A stretch of 6,344 nt of DNA from the NCBI GenBank assembly GCA_018667995.1, contig JABIQT010000645.1, forward strand, positions 1 to 6,344. Direction: 5' to 3'. Made by a program: the position numbers and the translations under genes. Under the pieces are notes generated by a model. It worked only from the letters and a program-made list of their open reading frames with translations, searched no databases and was not told where the DNA came from. This DNA is from Candidatus Latescibacterota bacterium (GTDB lineage: Bacteria; JAAXHH01; JABIQT01). Each line of letters starts with the position of its first letter. Position 1 is the stretch's first letter. Shown piece by piece: positions 1-6,344 of this stretch.

Positions 1-257
1 ATGACGATAGGGGGGTCAAGCAACTCACCGCCTTACTCGGGGTGGGCAGATGGACCGCTGACTGGTTTCTGGCGCGTTTTCTTGGGCGTGGAGACGCCAT
101 CGCTGCTGGCGACCTTGCGGTGAGGAAATCGATCGAACGGTTCTATTTCAAAGGTGAAAAGGTATCTGAGGAACAGATCAGAGCGTTCGCGGCGCGCTGG
201 GGAGACTATACCAATCTCGCAGTGCACTATCTGCTAACCTCGCATGTAGCGGGCTAA
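1..257 (+). CDS. DNA-3-methyladenine glycosylase (AlkA-type, HhH-GPD), C-terminal fragment
   Basis: This is the 3' end of a base-excision repair glycosylase that removes alkylated purines from DNA; the 5' part lies outside the window. The reading frame is open from base 3, and 84 residues are visible before TAA at 255-257. The fragment carries the helix-hairpin-helix motif LLGVGRWTADWFL (visible residues 11-23), which binds the DNA backbone. It is followed by AAGDLAVRKS, whose Asp (visible residue 37) aligns with the catalytic Asp of E. coli AlkA. The closing segment ARWGDYTNLAVHYLL matches the C-terminal helix of the AlkA family. The GTG at 42 lies inside the hairpin motif and is not a real start. 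The family call is firm. Which AlkA/Mag subtype it is cannot be settled without the N-terminus, so no symbol is given. Confidence 0.9.
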   Translation, partial: DDRGVKQLTALLGVGRWTADWFLARFLGRGDAIAAGDLAVRKSIERFYFKGEKVSEEQIRAFAARWGDYTNLAVHYLLTSHVAG

Positions 258-1739: not shown

Positions 1740-2894
1740 TCAACGATCTCTTCGGGCTTGCATGAGTAGGTCCGCAATCTCAGCATACCCTTGCGTCACT
1801 GCCGATTCGAGTGCGACATCCAGATCGTCGGCTCCCTGCTTGAGTAAGAACCTCACGATGTCTACCTTTCCATTGTAGCTGGCAAAATCAAGCGGTGTTG
1901 CGTTGAACTGTCCGTGTTTCATGTCCAGATCGGCCCCGGAAGCAACCAGGAATTGGACCATTTGAGACCTGTCCCAGAGAATGGCATCATGGACCGCCGT
2001 ACCGCCTCCGTCCCACAGGAAATCAATATCTGCACCAGACTTCAAGAGCATATCCGCAGTACCAGATTCACCGCACCGGGATGCAAATGCCAGGCCCTCC
2101 TGGAGCAGTCTCGGTTCCGTATTTTCACCGATGAGAATCGCCAACTGATCCGTCTCACCCAGGCCGGCAGCATCAGCAATGCTGTCCACTCTTGCGCCTT
2201 CCTCAACCAGGGCTTTCGCTGCCAAAGGATATCCCGATTGAATCGCGAGGCGCAATGGATACCCGTCATCGGATAGACCGTCAATAGCCGCACCTGCGGC
2301 AGCCAGCACATGAACAAACTCCGCCTGCACTCCAGCGTGAGCTGGATGGAAACTGCTAACCAGTAATGCGAGCGTTGTCTGGTTCAGACCACAGCCATAG
2401 GTCTTCGCCAGTGCATCGATTTCGGCGCCAGCACGAATCAATATACGAGCTATCTCTGGGGCGTTGGGGGGAGTCTTCTGGAGGTTATCTTCTATCCCAT
2501 TGGCAGCCACGTAATGCAATAGGGTCGCACCGTGCTTGGAAGCGGATCGCCCATGAACGATTCTTGGGTTTCCGGAAATCAGTCTCGACAATCCGAACGC
2601 ATCACCGCCGATGACCGTAGCTACTGCCCGGTCAAACACATCAGCCGAAACAAGCTTCCCGGCCTCTGTGTGGTGCTTCAATCGAGGCCAGCTCTTGAAC
2701 CCATTTTCTCGGGCAATCACGAGCTGGGCCTGGCTCAACGATAACGATTTTACGGGGGAATTCGGGCGGGGCCTATCGGCAAAATGACACCGCACCCGGC
2801 GTAGGGTTTCGCCATTCAGAGAGCCATAGCCTGCCTGCAATTCGCGAGCCTGCGATTTCAATTGATCGACGTTTAGAACTGGCGTAGTTTGCAT
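1740..2894 (-). CDS. Ankyrin-repeat protein with N-terminal AQLVIARE-type domain
   Basis: This is a 384-residue protein starting MQTTPVLNVDQLKSQ. The start at 2894 is preferred because AAGGGGG sits 6 nt upstream. The open frame runs on to 2981, but the extra 29 residues are not family-like. Residues about 8-77 form a small helical domain, with LKSQARELQ near the start and LSLSQAQLVIARENGFKSWP (51-70) followed by RLKHHTE. This combination is common in bacterial ankyrin proteins. From about residue 82 onward come degenerate ankyrin units, including ATLLHYVAANG (123-133), IARILIRAGAEID (148-160), YPLRLAIQSGYPLAAKALVE (212-231), TAVHDAILWDRSQMVQFLVA (299-318), SGADLD, and TPLDFASYNGKVDIVRFLLK (333-352) with QGADD. 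Ankyrin repeats are protein-interaction scaffolds; no catalytic domain or signal peptide is visible, so it is probably cytoplasmic. The partner is unknown. It is divergent from the DinB-like gene and is followed by the DUF5990-like gene. Confidence 0.9.
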   Translation of the reverse strand: MQTTPVLNVDQLKSQARELQAGYGSLNGETLRRVRCHFADRPRPNSPVKSLSLSQAQLVIARENGFKSWPRLKHHTEAGKLVSADVFDRAVATVIGGDAFGLSRLISGNPRIVHGRSASKHGATLLHYVAANGIEDNLQKTPPNAPEIARILIRAGAEIDALAKTYGCGLNQTTLALLVSSFHPAHAGVQAEFVHVLAAAGAAIDGLSDDGYPLRLAIQSGYPLAAKALVEEGARVDSIADAAGLGETDQLAILIGENTEPRLLQEGLAFASRCGESGTADMLLKSGADIDFLWDGGGTAVHDAILWDRSQMVQFLVASGADLDMKHGQFNATPLDFASYNGKVDIVRFLLKQGADDLDVALESAVTQGYAEIADLLMQARRDR

Positions 2895-2900
2895 AGCGAT

Positions 2901-2907
2901 CCCCCTT
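2901..2907 (-). promoter_or_regulatory. Ribosome binding site for the ankyrin-repeat gene
   Basis: On the minus strand AAGGGGG lies 6 nt before the ATG at 2894. It supports the shorter start over the in-frame start at 2981. Confidence 0.65.
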
Positions 2908-2964
2908 AGTACAACGCCTGTTGTTCGCTTGGCAGGCTCAAAGAAGAATCGAAGTTGTAGACTC

Positions 2965-2984
2965 GGAGTGGTGGGACACACTCC
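2965..2984. repeat. Inverted repeat in the divergent intergenic region
   Basis: GGAGTG (2965-2970) and CACTCC (2979-2984) are perfect 6-bp inverted arms separated by 8 nt. The repeat sits about 70 nt upstream of the ankyrin start, between two divergent genes, where an operator or a 5'-leader hairpin could lie. The arms are short enough that chance is possible. Confidence 0.35.
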
Positions 2985-4300: not shown

Positions 4301-4441
4301 TAGAGTCGCTCGCAGTGCCGAGCAACCAAGGCATCTCAGCCGTGACCACCCGCTGGGATCTCCCGGTTCATTCTATGAAAAACGACGTACTCTAACAACC
4401 TTTGCGGCTTTGAATGGGATACTGGCTGGACAACTCATAGC
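4301..4441. other. Intergenic region upstream of the sigma-ankyrin gene
   Basis: No convincing gene is seen here. An out-of-frame ORF beginning inside the end of the DUF1579-like gene crosses the whole region but has no family resemblance. In the sigma frame there are stops at 4393, 4411 and 4438, the last one directly before the Shine-Dalgarno. No strong promoter or terminator could be picked out by eye. Confidence 0.5.
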
Positions 4442-4447
4442 GGGAGG
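4442..4447 (+). promoter_or_regulatory. Shine-Dalgarno upstream of the sigma-ankyrin gene
   Basis: GGGAGG follows the in-frame TAG at 4438-4440. It lies 5 nt before a CTG (4453) and 14 nt before a TTG (4462), so it favours CTG by spacing, while TTG is the more common start codon. Confidence 0.5.
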
Positions 4448-4461
4448 CAATTCTGGACGAC

Positions 4462-6344
4462 TTGTCACTCATTTTCTATAGTGCCCAGAACGGGGATTCA
4501 AAAGCCTACGACGATCTTGTCCTGAGATTTCAGGACTATGCGGTCGGATATGCTTACTCCATATTGAGCGACCTACAGCTGTCCGAAGACGCCGCGCAGG
4601 AGGCGTTTGTGGAAGCCTGGGGACAACTACTGAAGGTATATCATCCAACCACATTCCCGGCGTGGCTTAGAAAGATCATCTTCAAGCACTGCGACCGAAT
4701 CTGCCGCAGACGCCGCGAACCGGTAGTGTCAAATGATGCGTTGTCAGGACTTGCCTCCCGAGATGCGCAACCAGACGGGTATCTCGAAACGAAAGAACTC
4801 CAGCACCAGCTGCGACAGGCCATGGGATTACTACCGAAGCATGAACGGGAGTGCATCCTTCTCTTTTATATGGGTGACCACAGCATGCGTGAGATCGGCA
4901 GTTTTCTCGAGTTGCCCGTCAATACAGTTAAGAGTCGCCTGCATTCAGGAAGGAGGCGACTCCGCGAGGGGATGGTCAACATGGTAGCTGATTATTTACC
5001 GAAACACGCTCCATCAAGAAACAGAGAATTCGCCGCACGAGTGGCAAGCCTCATACAGCCATTTTCGATGCGGACCCCAGAATACATACACGGCCTGATA
5101 ACCTTGGATGGAAACGATGCGTGGATGATCCTACGTGCCTCACTCGCGGGAGATGAGTCCACGGTGTTGCAGCTGTTGAAAAAAGATCCGAATTTGATCC
5201 ATGCGGACTTCTGGTATGAGTCTCCGCTGTCGCTCGCCGTACTTGGAAGCCATCCACACCTGGTGGCGCCCCTCCTTGCTGCAGGGGCAGATCCCGGGAG
5301 ATGTCGATCGCTGGTCATCCGTTGGGACGACCTATTGGACAGATCGTCAGAGAGGGATGATCAGGCGACCTGTGATCTGCTCCTGGATGCCATGAGAGAA
5401 CGATTCAACTATAGCCCGCTGTTTGACTCACTTTCAGGAGCAATACTCATAGAGCCCTCGGACGAGATTAATCGAATCATTGCCGACAGTCCGGAATTAG
5501 CACGTGCGGCTGATGCAACTGGAAATACAGCCATTCATTGGGCCGTGCTATCTCGCCGATTGGACTTGATCCCATTTTTTCTGGCATGCGGAACGGATAT
5601 GGGTGCCCGACGCATCGATGGGCGTTCCGCCCTGGATGTGGCTATCGATTTTTTCCCCGGTGACGGCCATGGTTTCTGGTTTCATCCACACTCCTTTGAC
5701 TTACCCGAGGACGCGAATCTTGATCGTTGGGTCTTCGTGAGGGTTTTAATCTCACAGGGGGCTGTTTACAGCCTCGCTGCAGCAGTAAGCATGGGCGATG
5801 AAGAGCAGGCAGCGGAGATCTTGAGAATCTGCCCTGAGGACGCATCCCTATTGGGCCCCACACACAGAAGTCCTCTGTCGCGAGCTGCACGGGAAGGTCA
5901 CACAAGTCTTGTCCAACTTCTACTTGACCATGGCGCCGATCCAAATCTCCCAGAGATGGATGCTCCTCGCGGCGCCGCGCTCTTCCTCGCTTCCGCACAT
6001 AATCACCTGGACGTGGCCAGGATACTTCTTGATGCCGGCGCAGACCCGAATGCGGAATATGACTCCTCAGGAGCATGTCTTGACATTGTCGGTCACACAA
6101 ACCCCGACTATTGTCATGAGATGAAGAAACTGCTGAAGCAGTATGGAGCCACCGAAGCTGACTGGTGCCTTGAAACAGTGGATTTTGTGTCGGCCATCGG
6201 CACCGAACCGGAAAGACTGATCGACCCCTGGTTTCTGCATCATATGCTGGCAAAAGAAGACGAAGACCTGGTAGACCTTGCTCTGAAAACGGATGCGGAT
6301 TTTCCAATCCGCTTGGCCACTGGCGTGTCGCCAAATGTCGTGAA
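4462..6344 (+). CDS. ECF sigma factor fused to ankyrin repeats (3' end outside window)
   Basis: The frame is open from 4441 to the window edge; about 627 residues are visible from TTG 4462. Sigma-2 spans about residues 8-85, with the -10-recognition segment EDAAQEAFVEAW ending at Trp53, then FPAWLRKII and a basic RRRR (82-85). Sigma-4 spans about 113-171: LRQAMGLLPKHERECILLFY, MREIGSFLELPVNTVKSRL and RRRLREGM, a complete helix-turn-helix for -35 binding. The rest is ankyrin-like: an acidic-hydrophobic linker, a first unit about 219-278 (SPLSLAVLGSHPHLVAPLLA, AGADP), a second about 354-395 (TAIHWAVLSRRLDLIPFFLA, RSALDVAI), and the clearest pair about 467-533 (SPLSRAAREGHTSLVQLLLD, HGADPN; LDVARILLDAGADPN). 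It presumably directs RNA polymerase to a dedicated promoter set, and the ankyrin part may sense a partner. No ATG is usable: the first in-frame ATG lies inside sigma-4. CTG 4453 is the alternative start. Confidence 0.88.
   Translation, partial: MSLIFYSAQNGDSKAYDDLVLRFQDYAVGYAYSILSDLQLSEDAAQEAFVEAWGQLLKVYHPTTFPAWLRKIIFKHCDRICRRRREPVVSNDALSGLASRDAQPDGYLETKELQHQLRQAMGLLPKHERECILLFYMGDHSMREIGSFLELPVNTVKSRLHSGRRRLREGMVNMVADYLPKHAPSRNREFAARVASLIQPFSMRTPEYIHGLITLDGNDAWMILRASLAGDESTVLQLLKKDPNLIHADFWYESPLSLAVLGSHPHLVAPLLAAGADPGRCRSLVIRWDDLLDRSSERDDQATCDLLLDAMRERFNYSPLFDSLSGAILIEPSDEINRIIADSPELARAADATGNTAIHWAVLSRRLDLIPFFLACGTDMGARRIDGRSALDVAIDFFPGDGHGFWFHPHSFDLPEDANLDRWVFVRVLISQGAVYSLAAAVSMGDEEQAAEILRICPEDASLLGPTHRSPLSRAAREGHTSLVQLLLDHGADPNLPEMDAPRGAALFLASAHNHLDVARILLDAGADPNAEYDSSGACLDIVGHTNPDYCHEMKKLLKQYGATEADWCLETVDFVSAIGTEPERLIDPWFLHHMLAKEDEDLVDLALKTDADFPIRLATGVSPNVV

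Follow-up and report, generated by a model that had tools for sequence, protein, structure and literature searches.

An ECF sigma factor fused in frame to a conserved ankyrin extension in a Latescibacterota contig

The window analyzed here is the whole of contig C622, 6344 bases from a fragmented Candidatus Latescibacterota genome (G000; 1165 contigs, ~85% complete). Its main feature is a forward-strand gene at 4462..6342 that fuses an ECF sigma factor to ankyrin repeats in a stop-free frame of 627 codons, with its 3′ end cut by the contig end. At the opposite edge (3..257, +) lies the C-terminal part of an HhH-GPD DNA glycosylase gene, identified by blastp and by the Pfam HhH-GPD match of its copy in genome G002. 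The fragment shares 72% identity with a gene close to a related sigma-ankyrin gene of the sister group (group B, below) in G002 and G004. Both settings also have a VOC protein gene near HhH-GPD (843-1226 in the window), although the two VOC proteins show no match to one another. The reverse strand at 1740..2981 encodes a free-standing ankyrin protein of 413 aa (Pfam Ank, 73.5 bits) that is a candidate partner of the fusion protein. By eye, the proteins encoded at window positions 1740-2981 (-) and at L010:6345-7661, both beside sigma-extension genes, carry a similar-looking N-terminal LKxxAKxL...AxARExGFxSWxxLK pattern.

The translation start of the fusion gene is uncertain within 4441..4464 (+), as judged from the sequence and the N-terminal alignment. 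The gene has no ATG start, and the candidates are ATT at 4450, CTG at 4453 and TTG at 4462, the last being the earliest common start codon. A GGGAGG at 4442-4447 is better placed for ATT or CTG than for TTG, and the N-termini of the orthologues lie a few residues upstream of the TTG position. The orthologues are 743-762 aa long, and the window gene therefore lacks ~120-130 codons that would lie beyond the contig end.

The frame runs from sigma region 2 through sigma region 4 and a linker into a divergent ankyrin array. Sigma region 2 (residues 19-84; 4516..4713, +) matches Pfam PF04542 with 26.7 bits against a cut-off of 24, and sigma region 4 (residues 115 to about 167-169; 4804..4968, +, or 4804-4962 in another placement) matches PF08281 (Sigma70_r4_2) with 45.9 bits against 25.7. 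The NCBIfam sigma70-ECF superfamily profile also matches (72 bits; cut-off 42.9), and PF04542, PF08281 and TIGR02937 all exceed their cut-offs. There is no Pfam match to the sigma-1 or sigma-3 domains in the 627 aa. The post-sigma-4 linker (residues 172-217; 4975..5112, +) is recognized in alignments by a PSxNxxFxxRV-like pattern. The ankyrin array (residues about 218-560; 5113..6141, +) is delimited by Pfam Ank_2, helix pairs and orthologue identity. Ank_2 matches residues 440-531 with 76.8 bits (cut-off 27.3) and Ank scores 67.4 bits, which places tandem ankyrin units above the Pfam gathering score. A profile built from the repeats of homologues locates the two clearest repeats at residues 469-496 and 500-531 (5866..6054, +) with 47.3 and 23.5 bits and a weak unit at residues 253-278; the remainder of 218-560 is divergent. 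These searches confirm the preliminary description, which had proposed a sigma-2/sigma-4 core continuing in one frame into several ankyrin units; the repeat profile shows two strong units and one weak one. AlphaFold2 gave a helix-pair pattern over about residues 218-560 in a low-confidence model. The mean pLDDT was 54.7 for the full window chain with six sequences and 38.4 for a Scytonema homologue without an alignment, both too low for statements on contacts.

Full-length orthologues of 743-762 aa (group A) are found in six genomes of the same order. They share 42-44% identity with the window protein over nearly its whole length, and the sigma and ankyrin parts are each 46% identical. Within group A the median dN/dS is much the same for the sigma, ankyrin and C-terminal parts (about 0.16-0.17) and is 0.23 in the linker. 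Both halves are under equal purifying selection and are conserved as a unit. Group B consists of sister paralogues of about 750 aa from the same genus. Contig C874 of the window's own genome encodes a relative of group B, and C192 encodes a third fused type. Many independent genomes carry the fusion intact, which excludes both a junction broken by a stop or frameshift and halves that are always separate genes; the ankyrin half is known also as a separate gene, beside the fused forms.

The same genomes also encode the ankyrin module by itself, in related proteins of 561-602 aa that are interspersed with the fused ones in the tree; fission or fusion has therefore probably occurred more than once. 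Sigma-less copies of the module are located at L015:3407-5092, L065:1443-3245 and L059:4373-6049. The group A genes (L050-L055) follow immediately after glnE, have glnA in the vicinity and adjoin pump genes that we take to be of the RND efflux type from a reading of the sequence and not from Pfam. A link between the group A gene and nitrogen control is possible. The earlier remark that no anti-sigma factor lies nearby holds, as Pfam detects none among the window genes, which cover one side of the fusion gene, or among the scanned neighbors of groups A and B.

We favor, at somewhat better than even confidence, a reading in which the C-terminal ankyrin solenoid would set how active the ECF sigma factor joined to it is, in place of a separate anti-sigma factor. 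The preliminary description had already suggested a regulatory role for the extension. That the ankyrin extension is conserved and under selection, with no anti-sigma factor in sight, agrees with this role; control by partner binding is the part of the proposal that we still infer, and intramolecular masking of sigma-2 or sigma-4 by the ankyrins would be a second possible mechanism.

The long-tailed ECFs form one clade against plain ECFs in the sigma-core trees (support 99/98 and 99/96). The plain ECFs have tails of 22 aa or less, and L124, with a tail of 69 aa, also falls inside the long-tailed clade. The sequences were sampled by similarity to the window, and the clade may be wider and contain unextended members. 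Most members carry the ankyrin module. A member from a Hainich groundwater bacterium carries a HEAT module, a Kiritimatiellae member has a C-terminal domain without a Pfam match, genome G314 has a DUF1835 module that alignment also places in G588, and the G054 member has a carboxypeptidase-regulatory and C-type lectin tail. The PSxNxxFxxRV-like linker after sigma-4 is visible in alignments across members with different modules. ECF-DUF1835 fusions, with further sequence, were seen at L120 and L122 in two genomes of one family. Another ECF at L061:8675-10546 has a tail of ~440 aa without a Pfam match and forms a tandem pair in some genomes (G005, G007, G003). Grouping the ankyrin members as a single clade gave p-AU 0.10 with a truncated Fischerella fragment left out, and one or several acquisitions of ankyrin are both possible on this value; the single-clade test is rejected if the fragment is counted as unextended.

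Ankyrin arrays are often scaffolds. The exchange of different solenoids within the clade, as if a binding surface alone were required, would suit an array that localizes the protein or scaffolds it at a membrane, in a complex or in an oligomer and has no on/off switch. The conserved linker after sigma-4 and the absence of an anti-sigma factor fit regulation better, and we regard a pure localizer or scaffold as the less likely account, though the strongest of the alternatives.

A conserved block, TTGTAACRCC-N13/14-GRYACTA, is found upstream of the group B genes. It is present in G002 at C1:1436949-1436976 and 1453227-1453254 (L153, L160), before the group B gene and before an operon encoding an AHSA1 protein and an ankyrin protein, and equivalents of both sites are found in other genomes of the genus. 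A search of 16 genomes with the pattern GTAACRNCN{13,14}GNNACTA returned 28 matches. Nine are directly before group B sigma-ankyrin genes, two more precede a group B-type gene at a contig edge or a fragment, 10 precede the AHSA1-ankyrin operon about 15 kb away, whose structure was read in G002, and seven are elsewhere. The reversed control pattern gave 22 scattered matches. Laid out like an ECF promoter, the block suggests that the sigma-ankyrin factor transcribes its own gene together with one ankyrin operon. Autoregulation is suggested because the ECF-like promoter is conserved at both positions, on the assumption that the motif is read by the sigma-ankyrin factor itself.

A promoter motif near homologues, which the preliminary description had proposed to look for, is thus present in group B, and the window gene does not share it. 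The group B matrix found nothing before the window gene, as 256 of 300 shuffles scored equally well. A hand-picked likeness upstream of the window gene (AAC at 4397, GATACTG at 4418) was dropped after the matrix performed no better than shuffles. The upstream regions of group A are conserved among close species and contain no clear ECF promoter. Four cyanobacterial homologues (L009, L012, L072, L073) show by eye an AAAC-N18-G[TA]CTTAT-like block ~30-40 bases upstream of the start. This block is unlike that of group B and is possibly a candidate autoregulated promoter.

The group B promoter bears on a second alternative, in which the sigma part has lost its function as a sigma factor and binds DNA or RNA polymerase as an adaptor while ankyrin does the main work. 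In its favor, close ankyrin-only proteins in the same genomes indicate that the module can stand alone. Sigma regions 2 and 4 nevertheless score above their cut-offs and experience no weaker purifying selection than the ankyrin part, and the sister group keeps an ECF-like promoter before its own gene, which makes an adaptor unlikely.

The window copy itself could be a decaying gene or the result of an assembly or frameshift error, given that the contig ends within it, that it lacks an ATG start and that the same genome has broken relatives (C393, C436). These relatives are located at G000:C393:4314-4448 and G000:C436:3966-4811; the former is 64% identical to residues 4-48 and has lost the rest. 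Against decay or error stand 627 stop-free codons and an identity to intact orthologues in six other genomes that holds throughout at the level given above. The fusion is not an assembly artifact because six genomes of the same order carry full-length orthologues with both parts equally constrained, and we consider decay of the window copy very improbable.

At least one relative of the fused family is present in each of the 16 genomes examined from the phylum. Outside the phylum the family is patchy, with members in cyanobacteria and two other lineages. In the cyanobacterial order containing Scytonema, 3 of 243 genomes have a member, and roughly 370 genomes across the domain yielded two sigma-ankyrin genes with frames of 560 and 405 aa. 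A plasmid search gave no further long fusion, and its best cyanobacterial match was a 275-codon gene. Symbionts and intracellular bacteria often have ankyrin proteins, and these genomes contain many ankyrin genes, but the same fusion in Scytonema and other cyanobacteria leaves a host-directed ankyrin part with an incidental sigma fusion as the least credible of the alternatives.

The favored reading, an ECF sigma factor controlled by its own ankyrin solenoid, would work as follows. The conserved linker after sigma-4 would couple the solenoid to sigma-4, and the binding of another protein to the ankyrin face would change the use that the sigma part makes of RNA polymerase or the promoter. Ankyrin repeats usually bind proteins, as a general property of the fold. 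In the sister group, the shared promoter motif predicts that the sigma factor transcribes its own operon and the AHSA1-ankyrin operon. The free ankyrin copies could be partners or competitors. Among the possible mechanisms, partner binding appears to have the most support, which comes from the analogy to ECF42, from the coexisting free ankyrin copies and from the sister-group ankyrin genes with the same promoter type. A broader proposal, which we offer as speculation and think doubtful, is that the clade uses plug-in modules (ankyrin, HEAT and others) as on-board receptors, that free ankyrins feed back on the ankyrin arm of the sigma factor, and that a partner-exchange switch replaces anti-sigma factors in small regulons of ankyrin proteins.

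With a sigma core and linker that stay while the C-terminal module is swapped, the clade amounts to a natural experiment in the control of sigma factors by their extensions. The conserved coupling of ankyrin to a sigma factor suggests that transcription switches can be modular and re-targetable, and the two operons predicted as the regulon of the sister group offer a concrete promoter for testing.

SigW of Bacillus lacks an extension and pairs with a separate anti-sigma factor. It is the best NCBIfam profile and PDB relative (structure 5wuq) of the window sigma core, with a profile score of 97.9 that is far below membership at the family's own cut-off of 209. At least 26 groups make up the established class of ECFs with regulatory extensions (PMC8999054). 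The window gene has features of this class in that its in-frame extension is conserved in orthologues and no adjacent anti-sigma gene is seen. The known extensions are mostly small ligand-type domains, TPR, WD40-like domains or membrane anti-sigma fusions, and ankyrin is not named among them in the searchable text (PMC8999054). No report of an ECF or sigma-70 fusion with ankyrin was found in the searchable literature. An existing group of the 2021 ECF classification, such as the cyanobacterial ECF237, might already contain the cyanobacterial sigma-ankyrin members.

ECF41 resembles the window protein in having an on-board regulatory domain instead of an anti-sigma factor (PMC8999054, PMC3426412), but its domain has a small-molecule-type SnoaL fold and the window protein has no SnoaL Pfam match. 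ECF57 shares a repeat-type interaction domain at the C-terminus (PMC8999054). In some ECF57 members this is of the WD40-like β-propeller type, whereas the window protein has an ankyrin solenoid and no WD40 match. The likeness is greatest to ECF42 (e.g. Sven_0747), which combines an ECF core lacking a recognized anti-sigma factor with a helical-repeat interaction extension and a linker beside sigma-4 (PMC8999054, PMC9023288). The sigma-4-proximal part of the ECF42 TPR extension is reported to require contact with sigma-4, and a protein partner has been proposed (PMC8999054, PMC9023288). The repeats differ, with TPR in ECF42 and ankyrin in the window protein, which has no TPR Pfam match. The ECF42 extension is about 200 aa, whereas the ankyrin array alone is at least 340 aa; ECF42 is accompanied by a YCII/DGPF gene and no such Pfam match occurs among the window genes; and the clade of the window gene, unlike ECF42, exchanges its modules. 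The best reading of this comparison, by analogy, is that the window gene would work like ECF42 without belonging to ECF42.
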